NCBI GenBank assembly: GCA_037447655.1
Contig: JBBHKE010000656.1
Coordinates: forward strand, 145,686 to 209,685
Reading direction: 5' to 3'
DNA length: 64,000 bases
DNA from: Zygnema cylindricum
Taxonomy: Eukaryota > Streptophyta > Zygnematophyceae > Zygnematales > Zygnemataceae
The stretch's first letter is position 1. Every line of letters starts with the position of its first letter. The translations under genes were made by a program, and so were the position numbers. The notes beneath the pieces were generated by a model that did no database searches, had not been told where the DNA came from, and saw nothing but the letters and a program-made list of their open reading frames with translations. Positions 1 through 64,000 of the stretch are shown here, piece after piece.

Positions 1-1302
1 CTTGAAGTGGGAGACTTAAGAAAACAAATTTTACGGGAAGCTCATGAGCATTTAGGACATCTAGGTCGAGATAAAACTCTTAGTCGATTGCAAAGTAGAT
101 TGTTTTGGCTTGGGATGGCAAAGGAGGTGTCAAAACACGTGGAAAGTTGTGTCCCATGCCAACAAAGTAAACCTAGTACCCAAAAACCTAAAGGTCTCTT
201 AAAACCTTTGGATATCCCTGAAAGACCGTGGGAATCTGTCAGTATGGATTTTATTGTCAAGTTGCCTGCTACATCTAAAAAGAATGATAGTATCATGGTC
301 GTAGTCGATAGGTTCAGTAAAATGGCAATCTTTATCCCTTGCAAAACAACTCATTCAGTTGTAGATATTGCAAAGTTATATTTTGACAACGTGGTCAGAC
401 ATCATGGAGTCCCTCTATCTATAGTCAGTGATAGAGATTCTAAATTTACGTCTGCTTTTTGGAAAGAATTACAGCAAAATTTAGGCTCTGAATTGAAAAT
501 GAGTACCGCTTATCATCCTCAGACAGATGGACAGACAGAAAGGATGAACCGTACACTAGAGGAAATGCTTAGGACTGTTTGCAGTGGAGTTCAGAACACA
601 TGGGAATCTAAATTGCCATTAATGGAATTTGCATACAATTCATGTAAACATGCTAGTACAGGATTCTCACCATTTAAAGTTGCATACGGATACCAACCTA
701 GAGAAGCATTGGACTTAATAACAGGGGTCACTCAAGAGAATAGAGGTTCTGGAACAGAGTTTTGGGAATACGTTCAAACAGTTTGGAAAACTGTCCGGGA
801 TGCATTAGTGGAGGCACAAAGGAGGCAAGAATTAAATGCTAACCTCAAACGGGGTGATTGGGTGTTACGCACAACTGAGAAGGTTTCGCTTTCTACAACT
901 CATTACAAGTGCAAGATTAAGGGACAATCGGATCCTACGGGGAAATTTTCTTCTAAGTACATTAGACCATTTACTATAATCGAGATGATATCGTCAGTTG
1001 CTACCAAATAGGACTTCCCGCCTTCAACAAAAATTCATCCAGTGATACATATCAGCCAATTGAAACCAGCGAATCTTCGACCAACTGAAGGAGAATTGGA
1101 ATTGGATCCCTCAATAATTATAGAACCTGAAGTCCACAGATGGGTAATAGATTTGGTTGGTCAACGGTTCAGGGTCGGCGATACTATATTCTGGCAAGTG
1201 CATTATCTAGGAAGGCCTGAGGATGAGTTGACTTTAGAGGATAAAAATTCATAGTTTTTACAGAGGTATTGGAGGGATAATAATATAGAAGTCCCGTCTT
1301 GA
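1..1302 (+). pseudogene. Ty3/gypsy integrase and chromodomain, 3' end of pol
   Basis: This is the 3' end of a gypsy polyprotein entering from the left edge. The long frame from position 7 has the HHCC zinc-binding region (C48 and C51) and a complete integrase core, with D81 (MDF), D142 (VSDRD) and E178 (GQTER) giving a D-x35-E spacing. A basic C-terminal region follows. After an in-frame TAG at 1009-1011 the same frame resumes with the HPV-HISQLKP linker typical of gypsy integrases, then a chromodomain-like segment (YLGRPEDELT, about 1180-1230). A second TAG lies at 1252-1254, and the frame ends at a TGA near 1300. The presence of a chromodomain points to the chromovirus branch. The two stops indicate a dead copy, although the catalytic triad is intact. 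Confidence 0.9.
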
Positions 1303-1333
1303 GAATTAAAGGTGTTTAAATGAGGTCATTTAA

Positions 1334-2442
1334 AAATAATGAGGGGATGATGTAACAACAATAACGGATAGAACTTGTTTATAAAGGGGTATTTAGGTAT
1401 TATGATTATAGAGTACTAAATTTGGTAGACGTGCGCAAAAGAATCACGCTATTTGGAGTTATATTTTAAGAGTTATAGCAAGGGTGTATTTAGGTGACAG
1501 CGTGGGGTCTAAACAACAAGTGGGTATCATTGAAATGGGTTAAGGGTCAAATTAGTACCGAAATTACGCGTGTACGTTTCTTAAAGTTCTAACGAAATGT
1601 TTAGTATGCACGGTGCTTCGTTTTGTACAAATTTTAGTACGAAACGTCACTTTTACTTAAGGGAATTTCGTAGGAAAAGTTTCGCGTGCGAAATTTGTTA
1701 CGCACGATCGTGGGAAGTAGCGTTTCGTTTGGCGCGCACTTTTGCACGTAAATTTTACGTAGTAAAACGGAACGTTTGATTGGTTAGTAAAGTGCTAAGT
1801 AGTTAGTAAGAGATTTCGCACGTTTTTGCATTGGTCAGTCTGAGTCTTTACTGATCAATGATTGGCCCAGGTAATAGCCTGTTAAAACGGAGCGTTGACT
1901 CTGGCTTGGCGAGTCCAGGGCGATGATGGATAAATAGTGAAGTGTAAGAGGAGAGTAGACATCTTTTCCTTTGGAAAAGTTTGTGGAAATTCCAGCTGAT
2001 CTTGGTCCTAAGCGATTAATACCAAATTGGAGAAAAGGCATTTTGCATTGAAATCTCTTATTAACTAAATAGTGTTTTAGTAGTTAAGAGATAGAATTAT
2101 TAAGAGTGGAGAGTAGTGGAAGAAAATTTAATCAGAAGGGTTGAGCCACGAGGGCAAGAGACCAAGCTAATGTTATGTGGATAGAAGCTTCTTCTAATTT
2201 ATAGTTTATCCTTTTGTGAGTGTTGTCCAATGTGGATGTGTATTTTCCAATGTGTGGAATGTGTGGTTGGGATTGTTTGTAGTAATGGGATTTTCAGAGA
2301 GGTAGGAAATCCTGTTACACTTATTCCGATTCACACTTTGTGACGTGACGTGACGCGACGAATCAAAGTGTACGGAATCTGACGACAATTTCGCCAACCT
2401 TATTTTGTGTACAGATTGTGTCAAAATCGAGGAGCGACACAT
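1334..2442 (+). repeat. polypurine tract and probable 3' LTR of the gypsy element
   Basis: A purine-rich run (AATGAGGGGATGA) lies about 35 bases after the pol stop and is followed at 1351 by TGTAACA, a standard LTR start. That fixes the left boundary well. The right boundary is uncertain: a candidate CGACACA end lies near 2440, but the sequence around it recurs at 3188-3398, so the LTR may be shorter or rearranged. No gene was seen inside. Confidence 0.5.
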
Positions 2443-32550: not shown

Positions 32551-34616
32551 TGAAAGAACACAAGGATCGACACACTTCACAAACAATAAACCAATATGCA
32601 CAACAGAAGCTTACACATAAAAAATCTCAATCAACTCACAACAAATCACATGGGCCAAATATAAGTTATATTTAGCCGAAAGCTTTTCAATACAATCTCT
32701 CACTCTTCTTACTCATTCTCATTTCTAACTTTCAGTAAAGACTTATTCTCACTCACACTCACACTGAATACCTTTTTTTGATGATATCTTTCCTAACTCT
32801 ACTGACTAACTAAATACTCATTCTAAATATCAAGAACAAATACAGTTGAAATAAATACAATGCAAACACTCCCTAAACATAATGACCAAGTGCACCCTGA
32901 GTGCGCCTGCCATGGCCTGCAACATTCAGCTACCTCTAATCTGACAAATGGCCATGGCAACATTAAGCTACCTCTAATCTGACAAATGTGTTGTTGAAAA
33001 AGATATTTTATAGTCTTGCCTTCTTTATCTTCCAGCAGCCCTCATACTTGTCGTAGTCAATGAGGACTTGCAGGCAGCCATGGCTACCCCATCCAGGCAA
33101 GGAGAAAGAGCAACTGTTATAGTTTCATGCAAAAGTTAGGCGATCAATAGTGGGACTAGATCCAGTGACCTCCGGATAGACTGCCGTATGGCGTAGCCGT
33201 CAGCCATATCCGGTAGGTCTTCATGAAACGTTATTCATATTGGGTTTGATACATATTTATAATGTAACGCGTCGGCATACTTCATTTAGTATATTACGTG
33301 ACGAAGTGAACATGAAACATGCGGGACTGCACGAAATATAGTACCGCACGAAACAACATCGCATTTCGACGAACGAAGTTGAAAGTCTTTGCGATCAATG
33401 GCTCGCGAAGGAGTTGGAATTCGAGAGTGGTTTTGGCGGTTTGCTGAGCATATGTCCGCCGGTGACACGTGGCAAGGGATGATTGGACAACGCGTATTGT
33501 GGAGGGAGCAACTTCGGTTCAATAACTGACATACGTAAGCGGAGTAGCCATGCCGTACTATGAAACTCTGAGACCTCCATAAGACCTCAGAGTGGACAGT
33601 TTCCAAGAAGCCTTTAGGATAACCCTGACCCCTTTGTGTTTCAGCAAAAATAACTACCACCCTGGCAGACAAAAACTCTGACCAACTCCACCCATGTGAA
33701 GATAAGACTCCCCTGAGTCGATAGCAAAAAGAATCTCTAAATTTACTCCCCTGAGCAGTAAGTTATGGAGGGTCAAAGTTGACCTTTTGTACAGAAGCTC
33801 TCTGGGAGAGAGGGTCATATCTTCTAATTTTTCTAAGTCCTATCTCTCTCACAGACTCTATCTACTGATGTACGGAACCAATCAGAATTTCAGTTTTGTA
33901 CACAAAAGTACAGCTGCCGGTGTACTTTATATACGACCATTGTACAATATGGCCTAAATGTCGACACGTGGTATGTCCGGATTCGCTCCCTTAATCCTCG
34001 CAGATGCCGTGATCCAATGTCATTCCGCCACGTGTCATCCTATGTGGCGATGACCACAAACCGCCGAAATCCGCTTCCGCGATCTCGGCGTTAATTCCGG
34101 CCGTCCGATTAAATTCACATTTAATCGTAGCCGTAAAAAATACATGCGCGGTATTCGTTTCACTAAAGAAATAAATGCGCGGTATTGGTTTCGTATCCGT
34201 ACCGAAATCCGTACTTTTACGTTTACTGGATATATGTCTCCCGTAAACAGTTACAGTTAAATGAACTATCATACATATAAATGTTTAACTAATTATCAAA
34301 CCATATAGTACATAACACTACTCCTAGACTTAACGACTAAGGCTACCGGCTATTGGCTCCCGGCCGGCAAGTACCAGGATAAAATCCTGTCGCCGGCACA
34401 TATCTTTTAGTAAATTAAACCCCTAACTAAAATATATTTTCCCGTAAACCTCTGGATAGCCTAGGTAGCCATGGCTCTAGCTACTTCTCCAATTTCTCAG
34501 TGACTGCGACAAGTTTGAGAAGTTGGAGAGAGAAGTTAGAGGTAGACTGCCTCGGCTTCTTTCTTATTTCTATTCAGACCTACAAAATACTTAAAAAAGA
34601 CCCTTAATTCTACACT

Positions 34617-38965: not shown

Positions 38966-40403
38966 TAAAACTCTGAGACCTCCATAAGTCCTCAGAGTGG
39001 ACAGCTTCCAAGAAGCCTCTAAGATAACCCTGACCCCTTTGTGTTTCAGCAAAAATAATTGCCACCTTGGCAGACAAAAACTCTGACCAACTTCACCCCT
39101 GTGAAGACAAGACTCCTCTGAGTCGATAGCAAAAAGAATCTATGAATTTGCTCCCCTGAGCAGTTAGTTATGGAGGGTCAAAGTTGACCTTTTGTACAGA
39201 AGCTCTTTGGGAGAGAGGGTCCTATCTTCTAATTTTTCTAAGTCCTATCTCTCTCACAGACACTATCTACTGATGTACGGAACCAATCAGATTTCAGTTT
39301 CGTACACAAAAGTACAGCTGCCGATGTACTTTATGTACCGCCATTGTACGACATGGCCTAAATGTCGACACGTGGTATGTCCGGATTCGCTCCCTTAATC
39401 CTCGGAGATGCTGCGATCCAATGTCATTCCGCCACGTGTCATCCGATGTGGCGATGACCACAAACCGCCGAAATCCTCTTCCGCGATCTCGGCGTTAATT
39501 CCTGCCGTCCGATTAAATTCACATTTAATCGTAGCCGTAATAAATACATGCGCGGTATTCGTTTCACTAAAGAAATAAATGCGCGGTATTGGTTTCGTAT
39601 CCGTACTGGAATCGGTACTTTTACGTTTATTGGATATATGTCTCCCGTAAACAGTTACAGTTAAATGAAATATCATACGTATAAATGTTTAACTAATTAT
39701 CAAACCATATAGTACATAACACTACTCCTAGACTTAACGACTAAGGCTACCGGCTATTGGCTCCTGGCCGGCAGGTACCAGGATAAAATCATGTCGCCGG
39801 CACATATCTTTTAGTAAATTAAACCCCTAACTAAAATATATTTTCCCGTAAACCTCTGGATAGCCTAGGTAGCCATGGCTCTAGCTACTTCTCCAATTTC
39901 TCAGTGACTGCGACAAGTTTGAGAAGTTGGAGAGAGAAGTTAGAGGTAGACTGCCTCGGCTACTTACTTGTTTCTATTCAGAACTAGAAAATACTTAAAA
40001 AAGACCCTTAATTTCTACATACTATAGGTGTACAAGAAGTACAACGGTATCTGTACCTTCTTGTACCTTGCACTCTTTTGATTAGATAGGTACACTAGTA
40101 GTAGGTTTAGAGAGGTAGTTTAGGACTTAGAATATTTCTTGGGTTTCAGCCTTTCTCCCAAAGAGCACTTGTATTTATAGGCCAACTTTGGTCAGCCATA
40201 ACTAAATGCTCAGGGGAGCAATTTCAGTGATTCTTTTTGCTCCAGACTCAAAGGAGTCCAAGCTACACGAGGTGTAGTTGGTTAGAGTTTTTGCGTCCCA
40301 GGGTTGGACTTATTCTATGCCAGAGTCAAAACTAAAAATATTATTCTAGAGGCTTCACATAAGCTGGACGTTTTGTGTACCAATGGAGGTCAGAGAAATT
40401 ACA

Positions 40404-51947: not shown

Positions 51948-54190
51948 TTACCCGCTCCATTCGCAATTCACACAGAACCAAGTGTTAGAGGGTAGAGGGG
52001 GTGGCTCCCATGAGGAGGGGAGATAAGCTGAATGCCAACAGTGACCACACTGGCTGCAGACCAATATGTCGTGTAGCTGGGAGGACTGAGTGCAAGCTGA
52101 TGAACTAGAAGGAGGATCGACAAAGTAAGTGAAGTGAAAAGTGGGTTCGTCTTCCAATCCCGGAAGATGGCAGGGGGCGATATTGATCTGATTATCTTTA
52201 ATTCGTCGACCATCCTTTCCCTCCAATGTAAGAACCCCTTTGTTGGAAAATTCAACCACTCTCAAAATTTCTCTCCCTGTAGGAATATCCAACGTGTCCT
52301 TCTTTTGTTGCATCCGATATGCAAATTCCCCCGGCATAAATCGTTGCTGCCGAGGAACATAATTCCCGCTCCGGCGTTGTGAATACCACAAATGATCTCG
52401 GTGTTGAGCCGCCTGCAAATTGCCCATGGCGAGAGGCATCTCTTGGTGAAATATCTTGGCTTTGTCGGCGATCAGTTTTTCGATTGTCCCCTTGTCATCC
52501 ATTTCTGGGAGGACCACCGCTTGGGCCGATGTAGCTCCTAGCAAGTTAGGATGCCGTCCAAATAGAATGAAATAAGGGCTATAGGAGTGGAGAGAAGCCT
52601 GCCTGCTGAATCTATAACCCATAGCAATCCAAGGCACTTTTCTGTCCCACTCCCCCAAATCTTCTTCAATTGCATATTTCCGTAGTGACCGCTTCAGTGT
52701 TTGTACGCACCTTTCGGCCCAACGGTCGGCTTGAGGGTGGTCACGACTAGTCAGCGGATGGTCGACTAGGCATTTTTCCAAGAGGATGGAAAATTCTCTG
52801 TCAAACTCGGAGCCTTGGTCGGTTAGAACTTCGGCAAGCGCTCGGAATTGGGCTAAAACCCTCTACAAAAAGGCATTTGCAATTGCTTTAGACTCCTTAC
52901 GGGGCAAAACCACCAACTCAATCCACTTGGAAAAATGTTCTATTATGACCAGCACGAAGCGGTTCCCACACTTGCTTGTCGAAAGAGGTCCCAAAAGATC
53001 TAACGACCACCGATAAAACATCCCTCGGATAGGAAGCGAATGAAGCTCAGTCTCGCCCTTTTTGTCAAAAGCTACCTTGACTCTATCCCATGAGGAGCAA
53101 GTCTGCACAATTCAGTTGACTTGGGTCCGCAACCCATGCCACCAATAAGAGCTCGTAACCAAGGAAGTGGTCTTCTTTTGCCCGAAGTGTCCACATTGCC
53201 GATGGAGATTGGAAATCAAAGTTTCTCGGTTAGAGAGGGGAGGAACCACTTTCCTCGTGACGTCTGACCATTTCCGAAGGAGAATAACTTTGTCCCAATC
53301 ATACGCAACCATCTCCGTCTGTACTCCGAATAATTGAATTCCACTCAAGTGGGGAAGAGGCGATCCCTGCTGGATAGATTAGAGAGCATCGGGGTCGTTC
53401 CAGATGTCCTTTTGTCCGGCCCCTATGGGTGCTTGCCCCTCCACATCGACCGAAAAGTTGACAATTCCACCCCAGATTCGGGAAGTTTGATGAAAGCAGA
53501 GGAGGCTCGAATGAGTCCCAAACTCATCTCAGGGTCCTCATTATGTCGATCCTCGGTAGAATCCATGGTGGAGGGATCAGTATTTGGGCTAAGTCCGTCG
53601 GCATTCTCATGGATTTCCCTTGCCCTATGAACAATGTCGAAATTATATTTTTGCTGGATAAGAACCCATCTGGCGAGTTTGGCGGTTAACTTACTATTCT
53701 CCATGATCTATTTCAGGGGTTGGTGATCCGTAATCAAGGTGAAATGGTTTCCGTACAAATAAGGCCAGAAATGCTGGATGGGCCAAACCGCAACGAGAAA
53801 TTCTCGGTGGTAACTGCTATAATTCCCCTCTGCCTTGTTGTTCCTCCGGCTGGCGTAGGCCACCACATATTCAGCTTTGGCATCATCGACTTGGGCCAAA
53901 ACCGCTCCCAATCCAAACCTGCTCCAATCAGTATAAACGAGAGAAGGTCTTTGGTGATTAGGCATGCGGAGAACAAGGTGCTTCTTCAGAGCATCCTTCA
54001 AGAACTGGAAGGAGATCTGTTGTTCTTCCGCCCACTGCCACTCTTAGTCCTTCCGCAATAGCAGGTTAACGGGCTGGGCGTGACTACTGAACTCGCGTAT
54101 TAACCGCCGATAGTAATTGGCCAGGCCCTGAAAGGTGCGAAGGGCCGAGATGTTCTGTGGTGGGGGAAGAGCGTTAATGTAGAAATCAAT
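51948..54190 (-). pseudogene. gypsy F: RT C-terminus, RNase H, integrase and PHD-like finger
   Basis: Minus-strand order from 54190 down: RT thumb block (ISALRTFQGLANYYRRLI), RNase H (VYTDWSRFGLGAVLAQ, FTLITDHQPLK; 53708-54001), an integrase zinc region with HRQCGHFGQKKT, and the core with SLDLLGPLS and VLTDQGSEF. The 277-codon frame 51948-52781 follows, carrying AERCVQTLKRSLRKY, FVYRM-like GEFAYRMQQKKDTLD and APCHLP. After a linker the protein ends with CSQCGHCWHSAYLP ... WFCVNCEW, a Cys/His arrangement like the second half of a PHD finger. Stop TAA at 51948. Several frameshifts are present. The RT is cut by the copia LTR near 54190, and the junction is duplicated. The style of RNase H and integrase suggests the same lineage as the methyltransferase gypsy at 61.4-64 kb (inference). 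Confidence 0.85.
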
Positions 54191-54947
54191 GGTTATTTCT
54201 TTATTTTCTAGGTCTAAATTGGAATATAGAAAGAAGCCAAGGAAGTCTGACTCTAACTTCTCTCTCAAACACTCACAATTGTTGCAGTCACTGAGAAGTT
54301 GGAGAGGAAGCTAAAGCCATGGCTACCTAGGCTATCCAGAGGTTTACGCGAAATAGATTATTTTATTTACAGATAGGAAGGTTTATCTACTTGTTGTTGC
54401 TCCAGCTGGCGTAGGCCACCACATATTCAGCTTTGGCATCATCGACTTGGGCGAAAACCGCTCCTAATCTAGACCTGCTCCAATCAGTATAAACGAGGAA
54501 AGGTCTGTGGTGATAAGGCATGCGGAGAACGGAGTGCTTCTTCAAAGCATCCTTCAAGAACTAGAAAGAGAAGTGTTGTTTTTCCGCCCACTGCAACTCT
54601 TGGTCCTTCCGCAATAGCTCGTTAACGAGCAGGGCGTGACTACTGAACTCAGGTATAAAACTGCCGATAGTAATTGGCCACGCCTTAAAAGGTGCGAAGG
54701 GCCGAGATGTCCTGTGGTGGGGGAAGAGCGTTAATGTAGAAATCAATGGATATTTCATTATTTTCTAGGTCTAAATTGGAATATAGAAAGAAGCCGAGGA
54801 AGTATGCCTCTAAATTCTCTCTCAAACACCCACACTTGTTGCAGTCACTGAGAAGTTGGAGAGGAAGCTAGAGCCATGGCTACCTAGGCTATCCAGAGGT
54901 TTACGGGAAATAGATTATTTTATTTACAGATAGGAAGGTTTATCTAC
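53834..54947. repeat. tandem duplication of a gypsy/copia-LTR junction, unit ~556 bp
   Basis: 53834-54390 and 54391-54947 are diverged direct copies. Each holds the gypsy RNase H/RT segment (GCGTAGGCCACCACATATTC to GGGGAAGAGCGTTAA) followed by the first ~210 bp of a copia LTR (TGTAGAAATCAATGG to GGTTTATCTAC). The duplication arose after the LTR inserted, because both copies contain the same junction. Only the second copy continues into the full LTR. Confidence 0.9.
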
Positions 54948-55797
54948 TAAAAGGTATATGTCGGTGACAGTATTTGATCCTGACACCTACCGACCGTCAA
55001 AGCACCGGTAGCCAGTAGCCTTAGCCGTTAAGTCTAGAAGTTCCGATACATACTATTAGGTTTGATTTGTATTTATATGTTACGACGTTGGAAAATTCAT
55101 TTAACGGCGGATGTTTACGGTTACATAGAACCTGTTATAAAAACGTACGGATTACGGTATGTACAAGAAACAAGTACCGCGAATTTTGTTTCTTTTACGA
55201 AACAAATACCGCGCATGTATTTATGACGGCTACGATTGAAATCTGCATTTAATCGGATGACCGAGAAGAAAGCTGAGATCCCGGAAGAGATTCTCGTCGG
55301 TTTGTGGTCATCGCCACATCGGATGACACGTGGCGAAATTGCGTTGGATTGCGGTATCTCCAGGATTATGGCACTGTATCCGGATATGACATGTGTCGAT
55401 ATTAAGGCCATGTCGTACAATTTCTGTACATAAAGTCACTAGCCGCTGTACTTTTATGCACAACAATTTAATATAATTGGTGCCGTACACTAGTAGATAG
55501 AGTTTGTGAGAGAGATAGGACTTAGAAAATTTGGTATATAGGACCCTCTCTCCCAGAGAGCTTTTGTACAAAAGGTCAACTTTGACCCTCCATAACTTAG
55601 TGCTCAGGGGAGCAAATTCAGAGATTCTTTTTGCTATCGACTCAAAGGAGTCTTGCCTTTTCAAGGGTGAAGTTGGTTAGAGTTTTTGTCTGCCACGATG
55701 GCAGTTGTTCTTGTTGAAACAGAAAGGGGTCAGGGTTATCCTAGAGGCTTCTTGGATGCTATCCACTCTAAGGACTTATGGAGGTCTCAGAGTTTTA

Positions 55798-55812
55798 GGT
55801 TATGGGCCCACC
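55798..55812 (+). promoter_or_regulatory. primer binding site of copia D
   Basis: GGTTATGGGCCCACC starts right after the 5' LTR and is the exact complement of the initiator tRNA-Met anticodon-arm sequence as I recall it. It is identical to the site in copia A. The ATG within it is the gag start codon (55802). Confidence 0.75.
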
Positions 55813-58800
55813 CTCTAGGGTACCAATCTTTAATGGAACTAGCTTCATATACTGGGAAAGTATGATGATAGGAGCTGTATGCGAAAAAAGATTTTGGGGG
55901 ATAGTGAGTGGACGATTCGGGCGTCCATCAAGTCTTCGAATTCCTCCAGGGTTTGAAGGAAGCAGATTCACAAAGAAAGCAGGTCTATCTTCAATGGAGG
56001 AGATAAAGGAACGAGAGGTGGTGGACAAAAGAGCGGAGAAGGAGACGACCACACCAATAGCAACCGATTCAGCATTCATGTCTCTATTCCGAGGAACGAG
56101 AAGAATGATACTCAAACCTGGGATTTCAACAATATGGCAGAAAAACAGTTCATCCTACCCCATCTTACTCAAGGACTTGCGTGTCCTCTGAAACTCTGAG
56201 ACCTCGATTGGCCCTCATAGATGATAAGGGTTTTTTTACTAGCACTAGGGAAAGAGTCTTTACTGATAGTTTTGAGGAGGATGTCTATTTCAGTGCTGAG
56301 AAAGGTAGCCATAGGATGTTTAGGCTGATTTTAAATAATGAAACGAAGAAACTTTATTATGATGGTGTTTATGATATTATGATGTGGCATAAGAGGCTTG
56401 GGCATTTGAATCTATATAAGTTAAGAGAGATGAAAAAGATAGGAGTGGTGGAAGGGATTCAGTTCAGTGAGAGTGATAATATAAGTGATTGTAGTGGATG
56501 TGCTAAAGGTAAAACACACAGATTACCGTTTCCAAAAACAACCACCTATAAGGGAGAAAAAATTCTAGATCTAGTACACACAGATATTTGGGGACCGGCT
56601 AAAGTGCCCTCACCGGGTGGGAAAATTTTTATGATGACTATCATTGATGATTGGTCTTCGTATTCTTGGGTGTATATTTTGAAAAACAAGTTTGAAGCTT
56701 ATGATTGTTTTAGACAATATAAAGCATGGAGCGAAAAACTCCATGAAACTCCAATCAAGAGAATAAAGAGTGACAATAGAGGAGAGAATACTTCTAACTA
56801 GTTTGAGGATTTTCTGAGGGAAGATAGGTTCCAACACCAAAAGACAGTTCCAGAAAACTCGGAACAGAATGGGGTAGCTGAAAGGTTAAATAGAACACTA
56901 AGTGATAGTGCTACAAGTATGTTGTCGGATAAGAAGATAGGAAAAAGGTTTAGGGCAAAAGCAATGAACAATGCTAATTACCTCAAAAATAGAGTTCTTA
57001 CTTCAGCTATAAAAGATCAAACACCTTATGAGAGATGGACAGGCCGGAAACTAGACATATCTCACTTCAAGGTTTTCGGTAGGCAAGTATTCAGTCTAGA
57101 TGTAGATCGGTCTAATTAGAAGCTAGATCCTAAAAGAAAACCGGGATACTTATTAGGATATGATGAGGGTGTTAGATGATATAGAGTTTATGATCTAAAA
57201 AGGGAAGATATAATCTTAGTAAAGCATCTAGTAGTTATAGATGAAGGAAAGTCTGTGGATCCCTTTAAATATACAAAGTCAGTAAAAATCAGATTTGAGT
57301 CAAAAAATTCCGATGACTTTGAGCTTCCTAACTATCCAGGTTTCAGAGAAGATGACATTCTTGCAGGTACAAATCAGACCGAAAAGGACTCGGCTGTCGA
57401 AACTCGAGTGACAACTCTACCCGAAGCGGAAGAGGTGGTGGAAATTGATTCGGAATCAAGGGATAGGGGAGAAGCCGAGTTTGTTCGAAAGAATTCATGA
57501 GAACCATCTATTCCGGCCTCAGATTTTGAAGGGGGGAGGAGAAGTAGCAAAAGACTGTAAGAAAAACAGGTTAATAACAAGGTAACTAAACTATCTCATC
57601 AAGATGAACCTCAAACTTATGGAGAGGCAATGACTTGTCCAGAAAGAAATCAGTGGAAGACTGCCATCAATGAGGAGATGGCCTCAATTATGGCAGCCGA
57701 TACTTGGGAGATGGTGGATTCTCCACCTAACCGAAAACCTATCGGTTGTAAGTGGGTTTTCAAATTAAAATTGAACCTTGATAACCAAATCGAGCGCTAT
57801 AAGGCCAGATTAGTGGCAAAGGGATTTACACAAAAAAAGGGAATTGACTACGAGGAAACCTTAACCCCGGTCGTCTGATTTCCCTCCGTCCGCATACTTC
57901 TCAGTGTAGCAGCAGCGGAAGACATAAAAGTGCACCAGATGGACATCAAGACAACCTTTTTGCATGGAGAATTAGAAGAGGAGATCTTCATGCGACAACT
58001 TGAAGGACTTGTGGAGGAAGGAGAGGAGAGTAAGGTATGCCGGCTGATTAAATCCCTTACAGTTTGAAAAAGGCGCCTCGACAGTGGAATAAGAAACTTG
58101 ATAAGTTTCTTACGGGTCTGGGATATATCCAGATCAGCTCAGATCACTCAATCTATGTTTTTTAGGATGAGGAACGTATTATATTTATTGCAATTTATAT
58201 TGATGATTTACTTGTTTTAAGTAAATCAATGGAAAAAATTAGTAAACTAAAAATTGATCTTAAAGGGAGATTTGAAATGAAGGATATGGGAGAAGCAAAA
58301 TATATTTTGGGAATTCAAGTAGAAAGAGACCAAGAAAGAAAAATTATAAGATTGACTCAAAAAGAAACAATAGGGAACATGCTAGAAAAATTTTAGATGG
58401 ATAAAGCTAATAGTTATACAACTCCAATGGAGTTAAAGAAGGGAAGTGAGGGGAGTGAGGAAGAAGGAGTCATAGTCTTAGACGAGAAATTATCTTCTGA
58501 AGAACAAAAGTTCATGCAGACTATTCCTTACAGGCAAGTAGTGGGAAGCCTAATATATTTTATGAATTGTACCCGGCCAGATTTAGCTGCAGCTGTAGGA
58601 GTGCTGAGTAGAAGTTTAAATGCTCCCACTAAGAAGGATTCAGAGGCAGCTAAGAGAGTCCTTAGATATTTGATAGGAACTAGGGATCTATGGTTGCATT
58701 TGGGTGGGGAGGATACTGACATCACTACTTGGAGTGATGCCAGTTATGGTGATGCTTCGATGAGGAGATGTACTTCGGATATGTACTATATGTGGGTGAT

Positions 58801-60367
58801 GGGGAAGTTGATATTTCAGTATTTTCTAGGTCTTTATAGAAAAAGAGCAAAAACAGTTTGTCCCTGACTCCCTTCTCCAAGCCCCCACACTTATTATAGT
58901 CAGTGAAGGCTTGATAGGGAGCTAGAGCTATGGCTGCCTAAGCTCACTAGAGAAGACAGGGGTAGATCAAGAAGATTTACCAAAAATATACTTGACGGAC
59001 CCAGGAATTGATCCTCGTACCTACTGTCCGTCAAGTTGTCGTAACCATTAGCTCTAACCGTTAAGTCTAGGAATAATATTAGGATATATTGTGTTTGATA
59101 AATCAATAAATTGTTACACGTAGATTAATTCGTTTAACGGAGAATAGATTCTTAGTGCATGGATACAGTTTGATTTAGTACGGAATACGGTATGGGGACA
59201 GAACGGATACCGCGCATTTGTTTCGATAGCGAAACAAATATCGTGCGTCGAATTTCAGCGGCTAGGATTATAACTGGTTTTTATCGGACGGGAGCGATAG
59301 GCGCCGCGATCACGGAAGAGGTACTTTTGGCGTTTTACGGTCTTTGCCTCGCTAGATGACACGTGGCGTGATAACATTGGATTACAAGAACTCCGGAGAT
59401 TACGGGAACAAATCTTGATTTGACACGTGGCGACATTTTGGCCATGTTGTACAATGGCCGTACATAAAGTACACCGGCACTTGTACTTTTTTGTACGACA
59501 CAGTAATTTGATTGGTGCCGTACTTCAGTAGATAGAGTTTTTGAGGGGGAATAAGATTTAGAATATTTTGGGTAGGTAGTTGCCTCTCCCAGAGAGCACC
59601 TTGTATAAATGGCAAACTTTGGCCAACCATAATTATCAATTTACTTGACCATTTTCAGTGATTCTTTTTGCTGGGGACTCAGGGGAGTCCAGGCTATACA
59701 GAGATGTAGTTGGTGAGAGGTTTTGCCTGCTAGGGTGGTTGCATTTCTAAGGGAAAGTCAAAGTGGGTAAATGTGTCCAAAACTCATATTCTAACTTTGC
59801 ATTCTGTGGTGGAACTGAGCACACAGAAAGCCTTATTTCACAGAGGTGAAGCTATAATGGGTTTCTGATAGTCAAGGGGTCAGTCATTTGGGTTTATATC
59901 AACTTGGAGTCGGCACTATCTAGATAGGCTTCTTTTGGATCTGCGATTTCTGTGGGCAATGGAGCACACAAAGTTTCAGGGGCTTGCTGTTGGAGTAGCA
60001 AACAAAAAAAGGTTATTGCTCAGTCCACCATGGAGGCTGAGTATATGGCCTCCTGCTCTGCTGTAAAAGAATTGATGTGGGTCAAGTCTTTGCTTCGTGA
60101 GCTTGGTCACCTTAAGAGTGGTGTGCAAATTTTTTTTTGTGATAATCAGGCAGCGATCGCTATTTCTGTCAATCCTAAACATCATTTTAAAGCCAAACAT
60201 ATGGACATTAAACTCAGTTTTGTTAGAGGGAAAGTAGAAAACAAAATAATTAGTTTAGAGTACTGACCAGATAGCGAGATGGTAGCAGATATGATGACCA
60301 AACCTGTGGCTTCCCCTAAGCTAATTTTCTCCAAGGAGAAGTCTGGTCTGAAATTAAAGAGTGACTA
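55802..60367 (+). pseudogene. copia D gag-pol, internally deleted and split
   Basis: Gag starts MGPPSRVPIFNG at 55802 but stops at about 56190. A junction there skips the rest of gag and the protease and resumes at DDKGFFTSTRERVF (56220). Next come gag_pre-integrase (MWHKRLGHLNLYKL), integrase (TDIWGPAKVPS, EQNGVAERLNRTLSD; 56181-57120), linker, RT with YIDD in place of YVDD (about 58195-58210), and RNase H up to SDASYGDASMRRCTS. There the frame is broken by a solo LTR (58806-59978). RNase H resumes at about 59980 (ACCWSSKQKKVIAQSTMEAE) and ends near 60367. Many point stops occur in addition. Confidence 0.9.
58806..59978 (+). mobile_element. solo LTR inside copia D RNase H
   Basis: The RNase H reading ...YVGDGACCWSS is interrupted after GATGGGG (58801-58804) and resumes with GGGGCTTGC (59979), so GGGG is duplicated. 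The insert is about 1.17 kb, begins AGTTGATATTTCAGTATTTTC (a variant of the TGTTAATATTTGAG start of the LTR at 3756) and ends AGTTTCA. It shares CTTGGAGTCGGCACTATCTAGAT and the GGACCCAGGAATTGATCC block with that LTR. It has no internal domain. Confidence 0.85.
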
Positions 60368-61433
60368 GGAAATAAGGGGAGTGTAGAAATTGATAGTTTT
60401 TTCATTATTTTCTAGGTCTAAAATAAAGTGCAGAAAAAGAAGCCGAGGTAGTCTCTGTATAACTTCTCTCTCCAACTCTCACACTTATTGCAGTTACTGA
60501 GAAGTTGGAGAGGAAGCTAGTGCCATGGCTGCCTATGCTATCCAGAGATTTACGGGGTAGTAAAGTATTTTATTTACTAAAATGTAAGCTGTCGCCCAGA
60601 GGATTTGATCGTAGTACCTACGAATAGGTAATTCCGCTAGTAGCCGGTAGCCTCATCCATTTAGTCTAGGATTAGTGGAAGACGATATAGTGTGTAATAA
60701 ATATATAAACGCTAACATATAGGCTAATTCATTTAATGGCAACTATATACGGGATACATAGAGTTAGTTACGAAAAGTACGAATTACGAGTACAAACAAT
60801 AAATAAGTACCGCGCATTTGTTTCGATAGCGAAACAAACATATCACAACTATTTATGACGGCTACGATTGAAATCGACATTCAATCAGAGGGCCGGAATG
60901 AATGCCGAGATCGCAGTAGAAGATTTCGGCGGTTTATGGTCACTGCCATATGGAATGACACGTGGTACCACGCTATTGGATTTCGGCATCTCCATGGATT
61001 ACGGAAACGAATCCAAAAAAGACACGTGTCGACATTTTGGTCATGTCGTTACAATGTTCGTACATAAAGTACACCGGCAGCTGTCCCTTTCTATACGGTA
61101 CAGTAATATGATTGGTGTCGTACGTCAGTAGATAGAGTTTTAGAGAGAGATAGGACTTAGAAAAATTTGGTAGATAGAGCCCTCTCTCCCAAAGAGCTCC
61201 TGTACAAAAGGTCAACTTTGACCCTCTATAACTTACTGCTCAGGGGAGCAAATTCAAAGATTCTTTTTGCTATCGCCTCAAGGAAGTCTTACCTTCACAG
61301 AGGTGAAGGTGGTTAGATATTTTGTTTGCCAAGGTGGCAATTATTCGTTGTGAAAGACAAAGGGGTCAGGGTTATCTTAGAGGCTTCGTGTGAGCTGCCT
61401 ACTCTGAGGTCCTATGGTGGTCTCAGGGTTGCA

Positions 61434-62257
61434 CCTTTGCTGGACGATCTCTTCAAGAGTCAACCGTCCAATAGCGGGCAGCTTTTTTCAAAGGGACTCT
61501 CGATCATAATCGTGAGTCTAAATCCATTAATACTCGCATACCATTATCATTTACTAAAGAACCTAAATTACCTATTCCATAAAATGCCTCTAGCATTACC
61601 GCTGAGGCATTAACCATTATAGAGGGTAGTATACAAGATGCGCATAGAGTCAAAAAATGCTTGGCAATATTGGCTAGCATGCTTCCGGAGACAGATAGCG
61701 ATGCTACATCCGTAGAGCTCACTCAGTCAGCGCATGCATTACAAGCACTTCAAAACCATCGTAACACCTTATCTCTCCTGGCAATTACTCTCGAAGAATG
61801 CTCAAGTCTTACTCCACACATGAGTTTTTAGATAACAAACTAGGTTTGTTCACAGTTAATGGAATAGCCCCAACTTAAACTCTCACCTCTTATGGACACA
61901 AGGGAAAAACTAGTTATCCTCGGATCAGATTTTGCAAAGGAAATAGGTCTTACCGCGGATACATTAGAACCCACTACTACTCGTTTGTTACCTTCCGCAG
62001 GAACCACCGAACCATTCTTTGGTATGACAAATGAACCACTCTGTTTCCAATTTCAGTGTCAATATGAAACCGATTTCGCAGAAAATATACCCTCACGCCT
62101 TGGTCACCAAGTGTTGTGATTATGAATGCTTCGTCGGCCAAGATGTCATTTTTCGAGTGGGGGGGGGAGGGTAAATATGCATGATCAAACATTTTCATAT
62201 AAACCAAACAATTTTCCAAACCGCAAAGCTTGCTTACCTCTTATCTCGGCTTGGTAA
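61434..62257 (+). pseudogene. methyltransferase gypsy (element G): gag-like region and protease
   Basis: Directly right of copia D a plus frame reads FAGRSLQEST, then FFKGTLDHNRESKSINTR, with stops at about 61475 and 61582. A long open part follows (LTIIEGSIQDAHRVKKC ... HALQALQNHRNTLSLL) up to a TAG near 61831, probably gag or a pol N-terminal region. The frame at 61892 has LVILGSDFAKEIGLTADTLE, which resembles the retropepsin-like region of this gypsy lineage. It then shifts by one near 62090 to continue ALVTKCCDYECFVGQDVIF. The frame shifts again to reach PNNFPNRKACLPLISAW and a TAA at 62255. The DTG-type active site was not seen. Decayed but recognisable. Confidence 0.65.
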
Positions 62258-62260
62258 CCC

Positions 62261-63476
62261 ATGCCTACTACGGCTCATTCTGCGTTTGTCTTACCAGCCT
62301 ATGCTGCAGTTGGCATAGGTGCGCATATTCTTGAATCTTTAACAGCGGACAAAATCTTATCAAAACTCGCGAGAATGCCAGAATTATTTGGCACCCCCGG
62401 ATTTATTATTGACTCTTCATATTTTGACAGATTGTATAAGTTTACTGTACCGATTTCTTTATTCAGTAGTTCGGATCCACTCGCTATTGCAATAGATCTT
62501 TCCGGGTTTCTGCCTATTAAATGGAAACGAATCAGTTTACAACGTAACCCGAACGGTCTTGTTATCTTAGATCTTTTTGCGGGAATAGGTACCACACTTC
62601 TCTCTTGTCTTAGGAACGGTATTCTAATCAAGCAGTATTATTCCGTAAATATTGACCCTTTGGCTAGATGGGCTCACTTGCACCAATGTCAAATCTTACA
62701 TGAACAATACCCTCACCTCTTACCGCAATCCGCTTTTCACAACATGTATTTAGCTTTACTACAAGATATCCGTCTGATAGGTAATCACGATTTGGCGGAG
62801 TTAGAACCAATCGACCTCCTTTTCGCTGGATGGGAATGTCAAGGTATGTCTAGAGCTGGGAAGGTTTAGGTCTAGCAGATCCACGCACTAAACTGTTCTT
62901 TGAGGTAGTGTGTCTTATCTATTTCGTTCAGTCACTGAACCCTCCCTTTGGATACGTCTTAGAAAACGTCGCAGCTCATAATGACCCGTGACCCACGGTT
63001 CTCGCAGACTACAAACATATCAAATCATTAATTAGACCGCCACTAATCATCGATGCCGCATGTCATGGGTCGTTGGCCCACCGCGTTCGTTCCAAGTGGA
63101 CGAATCTGGTGGACATATGCCGGCTCCAACACAAGCTAACCTCGCTGTCCGACCACCTAAACTTTCCATTCAAGAAGCACTTCTTCCATCTCATAAGGTC
63201 CAGACATGTGTTCAGACAAACTATCCCCTTACATTTTGTCTTAACACCTCTGGCCTGCCGTTACGTGGACTTCCTACACTAGTCCCATATTGTAACTCTC
63301 AAGCATATTCACATAACGGACCTGGTATGTTTCAGAACACGCATACGGGCAGTGTAGAACAACCTACGGCTGTGGAGCGAGAACACCTACTTCATTTCAT
63401 CACAGGCACCATTGCTGCCCCAAGACTCACTAAGCGACAGCGGTGCACATTACTTGGTCGGGTCATGGATCCACAA
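62261..63476 (+). pseudogene. C5-cytosine DNA methyltransferase domain inside gypsy element G
   Basis: Motif I (SAM binding) is LDLFAGIGT at about 62567-62592. Motif IV is AGWECQGMSRAG with the catalytic Cys codon at 62837-62839 (ECQ in place of the usual PCQ). Motif VI is LENVAAHNDP with ENV at 62962-62970. A motif VIII-like AHRVRSKWTNL follows, then a variable target-recognition region and a C-terminal block (ERE-x-LLHF-x-TGT-x-AAP ... RCTLLGRVMD) like motifs IX-X. Three lesions are seen: a 1-bp loss near 62862 just after motif IV, a TGA at 62989-62991, and a frameshift near 63108. The domain order protease-methyltransferase-RT is continuous, with no LTR between, so the enzyme is part of the retrotransposon. 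Retroelement-borne DNMTs are known from dinoflagellates and charophyte algae. Confidence 0.88.
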
Positions 63477-64000
63477 TCAGTGTCATTTGTCTTACGCAAA
63501 GGGTTTGCAGCCGGTCGATACGCACAGAACCATCCGTCTCAACCAGCTGGGGGGGGGAATATACCATTTAAACATAGTGCATCAAAATCCTCACCTTCTC
63601 TCCAGGGTATAACTTTTCAGCTTTCTCTCTTTCTTTCCTCCAAGTCCGACACAAATCACACTATTTACGATTTCTTGGAACCTAGTCACATGAGATGGTC
63701 CATCCTATTATACACAGCGACTAAATCTCCGATGCCGATACGCGCAGCACCACACTGGATAACAACATTTCCATCTAGAAGTTGGCATCATGCACTAAAT
63801 TGTTTGTATCAACCTCCGACTGAGTATGAATTGGGACAATCTTTAATAGGGGATGAAAAACTAGCGTTTGCACAGGCCATGGAAGCCATTACCATCAACG
63901 CACCTGAAAAACCAACGTGGAAATTTGGGACAGGACTAACGGAACCGGAACACGAATTGTTAGACGGTGTCATAAACCAACACAAAGACGCGTTCCCTTA
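63477..64000 (+). pseudogene. element G linker and start of reverse transcriptase, cut by the window end
   Basis: The frame that carries the methyltransferase C-terminus stays open to the last base. It contains a connector with SVSFVLRKGFAAGRYAQNHP and TYDFL-like IYDFLEPSHMRWSIL, then LTEPEHELLDGVINQHKDAFP at the edge. The last block is the typical lead-in of a gypsy RT (a helix ending in D-x-F just before the first RT strand). RT motifs themselves lie beyond the window. Confidence 0.7.

Follow-up and report, generated by a model that had tools for sequence, protein, structure and literature searches.

A decayed Gypsy fragment in Zygnema cylindricum and its sister copies: a retrotransposon lineage with a DNMT3-like methyltransferase in Pol and split terminal repeats

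Retrotransposons that carry their own cytosine methyltransferase have been published from dinoflagellates and charophytes (PMC5890265), as the initial annotation of the present DNA had stated. The closest described system is KnitGypsy-Dnmt3 of Klebsormidium nitens, a Gypsy-type LTR element whose Pol contains a DNMT3-class domain free of introns (de Mendoza et al. 2018, PMC5890265). According to the main text of that paper, the repeat order A-coding-B-A-B is found in DIRS elements and, by reference, in KnitGypsy-Dnmt3, whose methyltransferase domain gave no DNA methylation in yeast, a result called inconclusive by the authors. The same text describes adenine and cytosine methyltransferases in DIRS elements, and DNMT3 domains from SymbioDIRS-Dnmt3, a dinoflagellate DIRS element, produced de novo CG methylation in yeast (PMC5890265). 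Besides PMC5890265 and PMC12344493 (LTR Copia, DIRS), no report of a DNMT-bearing Gypsy element was noticed among the literature matches listed, which does not prove that there is none.

The element presented in this work resembles KnitGypsy-Dnmt3, as described in the main text, in its Gypsy type, in the DNMT3 class of its methyltransferase, in the place of this domain in Pol, in the A-coding-B-A-B order of its repeats and in the purifying selection on the domain. It therefore belongs to an already known kind, likened by description and not by sequence. Beyond that description, our copies have TG...CA ends with 4-bp duplications, a putative self-primer that covaries and a predicted PHD finger, which were not found in the passages of PMC5890265 on KnitGypsy-Dnmt3; the words "PHD" and "protease" are absent from the main text of that paper, which does not show that the published element is without them. 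SymbioDIRS-Dnmt3 is also similar, with a DNMT3 in Pol and split direct repeats. However, it uses a tyrosine recombinase where our element has a DDE integrase, it is reported as an independent acquisition (PMC5890265), and its CG methylation was seen in yeast, whereas the enzyme described here is known from its sequence.

The window, that is, the whole stretch of 64,000 nucleotides that was analysed, corresponds to C491:145686-209685, and its position 64000 is base 209685, the last base of this contig. The element lies at the right end of the window, where a gag tail, a protease, a C5-cytosine methyltransferase and the start of an RT lead-in follow each other within 61436-63998:

61436-63998, plus strand: decayed, 5'-truncated Ty3/gypsy (Gypsy-DNMT3) fragment, colinear with L022 639-3190 (sister copy C1344)
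61436-61831, plus strand: gag/protease linker remnant, downstream of the CCHC knuckle of C1344 (alignment to L021/L022)
61868-62119, plus strand: aspartic-protease region, decayed, colinear with L021/L022
62258-62869, plus strand: N-terminal part of the methyltransferase, motif I (62567-62593) to motif IV (PF00145)
62860-62991, plus strand: methyltransferase continuation in another frame, with motif VI ENV at 62962-62970, colinear with L022
62992-63282, plus strand: methyltransferase continuation after a stop, with the DNMT3-type block AHRVRSKWTNL at 63076-63108
63036-63536, plus strand: C-terminal block of the methyltransferase in a third frame, motif IX/X-like at about 63375-63488, colinear with L022
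63924-63998, plus strand: RT lead-in (FGTGLTEPEHELLDGV...), truncated where the contig stops; in L022, RVT_1 follows

The catalytic Cys codon of motif IV is at 62837-62839. The equivalent of the AHRVRSKWTNL block in locus L002 aligns to AHRARYFWGNL of DNMT3A. From 61436 to 63994 the DNA is colinear with C1344 (78.5% identity over 2565 columns with L022 639-3190; 76.1% over 816 columns with L021), so that neither an LTR nor an intron lies between the parts. In this respect the initial annotation, which had read a plus-strand series of frames running from protease-like to methyltransferase to RT lead-in without interruption by an LTR or intron, was right. Stop codons interrupt the window copy near 61.83, 62.12, 62.25 and 62.99 kb, and its reading frame shifts at about 62.86 and 63.0 kb; it is a dead, truncated fragment of a large lineage. 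As the fragment is cut at the contig's end, the RT, integrase and LTRs are seen in sister copies and not in the window copy.

Six window pieces, not including 62860-62991 by itself, were scanned with Pfam. PF00145 was matched by 62258-62866 (E 2e-4; 21.3 bits, just below the 22-bit cut-off), and the other five gave nothing better than E 0.046. Pfam found no match in 61317-61610 and nothing better than E 0.046 in 61583-61828; the protease piece and the C-terminal block 63036-63536 had no match of their own, and the Rfam scan of the window gave nothing at gathering scores.

The intact organization is visible elsewhere in the same 353-Mb genome, in which an own-genome search placed the methyltransferase in at least 152 places, a lower bound as 150 were scored of 1178 candidates. 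In C1344 (L021, L022), a single natural frame of 2039 codons carries a CCHC knuckle (aa 93-108, E 0.0058, below the cut-off), the methyltransferase (PF00145, E 1.6e-11), RT (RVT_1, E 1.1e-29), RNase H (E 2.1e-34), an integrase (H2C2, E 3e-15; rve, E 1.4e-11) and a PHD finger (Pfam, E 1.3e-9), and an overlapping upstream piece in the same frame matches Asp_protease_2 at E 0.0032, below the curated cut-off. In C449, which is 70% identical to C1344 in DNA over 6.2 kb, a frame of 1643 codons comprises a protease (a weak match, Asp_protease_2 at E 2.2e-4, below the curated cut-off), DNMT, RT and RNase H; the next open stretch contains rve and PHD (E 1.8e-11). The domain order is alike in these two domain-scanned copies, and the lineage is thus predicted to encode Gag-PR-DNMT3-RT-RNaseH-INT-PHD as one polyprotein. 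The initial annotation had placed a C5-cytosine methyltransferase between the protease and the RT of a Gypsy element, and this reading is supported, as seen in the single frame of C1344, with which the window fragment is colinear.

The order RT-RNase H then integrase in C1344 is that of Ty3/gypsy elements, and in PDB the RT-to-integrase part of the sister copy, not of the window copy, is closest to Ty3 Gag-Pol (E 1.2e-98). The PHD finger has its best PDB match in a PHF12 chain that contains two such fingers (E 1.1e-17). Membership in DIRS was considered and rejected, given the rve and H2C2 integrase domains of C1344; no phage-integrase (tyrosine recombinase) match was found in this copy at E 0.01. 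Animal DNMT3s are described as carrying PWWP and ADD domains (PMC12344493); the frames of C1344 and C449 gave no match to either at E 0.01.

The repeats of the element differ from two equal LTRs, being split. C1344 reads A1 (931 bp), coding region, B1 (about 243 bp), A2 and B2, and A1 and A2 are identical over their 931 bp, indicating a recent insertion. C449 has the same A-coding-B-A-B order, with A copies that are 80% alike. Directly after A1, C1344 has 17 bases that are fully complementary to A 457-473, and at the same place C449 has 14 bases, different in sequence, that are fully complementary to A 747-760; the putative self-primer site therefore covaries between two diverged copies, the only two in which it was looked for and seen. 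This length of complement was matched by no other 50-base stretch of the same sequence piece (0/351 and 0/484) and in none of 1000 shuffles for each copy. Tf1/Sushi and Tcn1 Gypsy elements have ordinary LTRs. Self-priming of reverse transcription has been predicted for both (PMC6317226, from the main text of which the word "methyltransferase" is absent), and the complement after A1 would be a signature of self-priming as described for Tf1/Sushi elements. A G-run found directly before B1 in both C1344 and C449 is likely the plus-strand primer. Together, self-primer and G-run predict a cDNA flanked on either side by B-A repeats. For the A-coding-B-A-B order to arise from such a cDNA, its ends would have to be joined and a B-A junction cut by the integrase; this junction reads GACA-GC-TGTC in C1344, C1407 and C449.

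C1407 (L024/L023) and C1344 (L021/L022) are about 99.9% identical in their shared parts. Upstream of L021 5674 there is no similarity and no A1 in the C1407 stretch examined, so that C1407 has either an exchanged 5' end or is a truncated copy.

We propose the following life cycle, to which as a whole we give a probability of about 0.6. The element RNA would prime its own reverse transcription, a stretch of repeat A folding onto the site just after A1, and plus-strand synthesis from the G-run before B1 would lead to a linear cDNA with B-A repeats. The cDNA ends would then be joined into a circle, the A2-B2 joint being the product of this end joining, and the integrase would open the circle at the B-A junction to give the A-coding-B-A-B insertion. 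The DNMT3-like domain in the same particle would methylate the free double-stranded cDNA while it is not yet integrated, and the new copy would thereby enter already marked like host DNA; the PHD finger would tether the integration complex to histone H3 tails. We infer the circular cDNA from the repeat structure. As for the methyltransferase, it is made as part of Pol and hence probably present where the cDNA is made, and free double-stranded cDNA is its most likely substrate; the PHD finger could tether integration to histone tails. The idea that cDNA is marked like host DNA was voiced for DIRS elements by de Mendoza et al. (PMC5890265). Host DNMT1-type machinery could maintain the 5mC marks of the element, a DNMT1-RFD profile match being found at two places on contig C2527, and, as a hypothesis, self-methylation might serve to evade host recognition. 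Split repeats, self-primer and DDE integrase suggest in concrete terms how the cDNA might be turned into a circle. Such a circle would be a substrate on which the methyltransferase can be tested, the question being whether a transposon places 5mC on its own DNA ahead of its insertion into the chromosome.

A broader idea, which we put forward tentatively and at well below even odds, is that DNA methyltransferases are picked up by retrotransposons that pass through free circular DNA. The Gypsy element would have re-evolved a DIRS-like cycle, with a DDE integrase opening the circle at the internal B-A junction, a DNMT3 writer acting on the circle and a PHD reader guiding it to chromatin. A shared circular stage would account for the methyltransferases of DIRS elements and, as an independent case, for those of Gypsy elements of this type.

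With the same anatomy, the methyltransferase might instead act on integrated copies or other nuclear DNA, as self-restraint or as antiviral host defence. The host DNMT1-type machinery could keep such nuclear marks too, slowed retrotransposition is one of the options named by de Mendoza et al. (PMC5890265), and antiviral defence was proposed for accessory domains of retrotransposons in a 2019 opinion paper (PMC6338049). However, in C1344 the methyltransferase is part of Pol and shares its frame with the enzymes that make and integrate the cDNA. This speaks for action in the particle, and we regard action on nuclear DNA as rather unlikely.

In PDB, the C1344 methyltransferase comes closest to human DNMT3A (E 1.7e-10), followed by DNMT3C and DNMT3B; HhaI is matched at E 0.0033 and DNMT2 at E 0.35. 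A profile of eight copies gave an order among PDB chains that agrees, with plant DRM2 at E 0.23, a low score that is handicapped because DRM enzymes are circularly permuted. The closest solved relatives are the DNMT3A and DNMT3B catalytic domains, over about 120 residues that include AHR.R..W.NL of DNMT3A. Judged by this comparison with PDB chains, the enzyme is DNMT3-like and closest to DNMT3A/B among solved structures. Partial-length matches were obtained with the dcm profile of NCBIfam and with methyltransferase profiles of PHROG, as expected for a C5-cytosine methyltransferase. No relatives were confirmed by tblastn in viral contigs or in bacterial and archaeal genomes; among phage records, 63 had weak matches, of which the 20 listed were at 27-31% identity, and none covered 80% of the query.

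The motif I, catalytic ECQ and ENV that had been pointed out in the window recur across the family. In a survey of 61 loci (seven repeating a place, giving 54 places, in a fetched set biased to open frames), the catalytic Cys is kept in 62 of 62 motif rows and the EN of motif VI in 58 of 60, and DLFAGIG of motif I is exact in 40 of 61, many copies being decayed. C5-cytosine methyltransferases as a rule have a Pro before the catalytic Cys (PCQ or PCN). Our element has the other hallmarks, namely motif I (SAM), the catalytic Cys, ENV and a downstream basic motif, but motif IV is ECQ: the Cys is preceded by E in 60 of the 62 rows, by V in two and by P in none, and ECQ is therefore a family trait and not decay. 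Human DNMT3A and DNMT3B have PC in motif IV, in contrast to EC here, and we count the E, at a position where the aligned DNMT3A chains have P, against the proposed life cycle.

This P-to-E change might mean that the domain is kept for nucleic-acid binding or polyprotein structure and is not an active enzyme. The negative yeast assay of the K. nitens relative, inconclusive for its authors (PMC5890265), points in the same direction and is likewise counted against the cDNA methylation model. Nevertheless, the conservation of Cys, EN and motif I given above argues against a purely structural role, as does selection. Ka/Ks of the methyltransferase ranges from 0.07 to 0.44, with a median of 0.16, in the 15 of 36 pairs with usable Ks (> 0.05); these pairs are non-independent and the values are given without a formal test. 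Twenty further pairs have saturated Ks, with Ka of 0.12-0.18, and one near-identical pair was excluded from the median. For the RT, the four usable pairs of 21 gave 0.03, 0.06, 0.15 and 0.26. The values indicate a methyltransferase domain that is plainly constrained, under purifying selection, and a structural role is to our mind no likelier than action on nuclear DNA. The domain is unbroken (at least 95% of its length) in nine of the 54 places, obtained from 12 rows after dropping three repeats. Worn-out copies stand beside many sisters in the same genome, some recent and unbroken, and the span from an identical-repeat insertion to lineages with saturated Ks, over at least 152 places, indicates that purifying selection can preserve a methyltransferase within a retrotransposon over long periods.

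The circular stage of the proposed cycle depends on the reading of the repeats, which might also result from recombination between ordinary LTRs or from nested insertions. A search with B1-A2-B2 as query, in which 40 were scored of 405 candidates, yielded at least 46 rows, of which 17 were B-A-B, 11 A only, seven A-B, four B-A and seven fragments or split rows. The solo-like A-B copies with duplications resemble products of A-A recombination. However, the B-A-B arrangement recurs in these 17 rows, and six contigs (C1344, C2578, C1653, C561, C704 and C1110) each have an A-only row followed downstream, in the same orientation, by a B-A or B-A-B row; in all of them but C1110, a methyltransferase match lies between the paired rows, likewise on this strand. 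Moreover, the diverged C449 has the same arrangement as C1344.

The flanks also bear on this question. The element ends read TGTC and GACA (TG...CA), and in flanks of 11 copies read by eye (the changed B end of C1653 being taken by position), a perfect 4-bp target duplication is found in five (C1344, C1653, C215, C2130 and C54). In C449 and C2578 the flanks agree in three of four bases, in C1571 they do so only when the reading is taken beyond a second, tandem copy of B's end, and in C1643, C1844 and C561 they do not match. As a control, mismatched pairings of the flanks of the first eight copies were equal in one of 56. The near-identical repeats, TG...CA ends and short duplication are those of LTR-type elements, and A-coding-B-A-B repeats with such ends, and a 4-bp duplication in several copies, can be read in this lineage. 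Among the copies with both outer ends read, C1344 and C1653 have matching 4-bp flanks, which speaks against recombination, but the flanks of C2578, C561 and C449 do not match perfectly. The six of 11 copies without perfect duplication are counted against the circular model, as is C1460, whose odd repeat order also fits recombination. On balance, we hold recombination or nesting to be less probable still than the two explanations of the enzyme's role discussed above.

C1460 (86633-87821, 75831-77259) departs from the other copies in having B-A at its upstream end and B-A-B on the downstream side. In C1307, an A-B row precedes a B-A-B row, which may be one insertion or two. In C1407, the A2-B2 joint is imprecise, with bases lost on both sides, and the B1-A2 joint is like the others, which we count in favour of the proposed cycle; such an imprecise joint was seen in this one copy.

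Finally, the idea that a methyltransferase gene or pseudogene came to lie beside Gypsy debris by chance, which the different frames of the parts within the window alone might suggest, is rejected as having next to no probability, since the many copies of the methyltransferase, its place in one frame with Gypsy domains in both C1344 and C449, with the same order, and the colinear alignment to C1344 leave it without a basis.

The surroundings of the fragment are rich in other repeats. Its left edge (61436) adjoins a repeat of about 1.03 kb at 60400-61431, read as the 3' LTR of a probable Ty1/copia element at 54753-61431, with integrase-like and RT-like frames at 56109-60266 that were named by eye. 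The two flanking repeats of this element, 54753-55794 and 60400-61431, are 75% alike, and a related repeat is nested inside it at 58814-59738. Two more copies of the 1.03-kb repeat, about 77% identical, lie on the minus strand at 33561-34595 and 38969-39999. Also on the minus strand, 52690-53872 holds Gypsy fragments, two pieces of which are 67-69% identical to the pol part of C1344. The 3' flank of C1344 (L022 7800-9901) is 85% identical to window positions 5-2100 and represents another repeat family.
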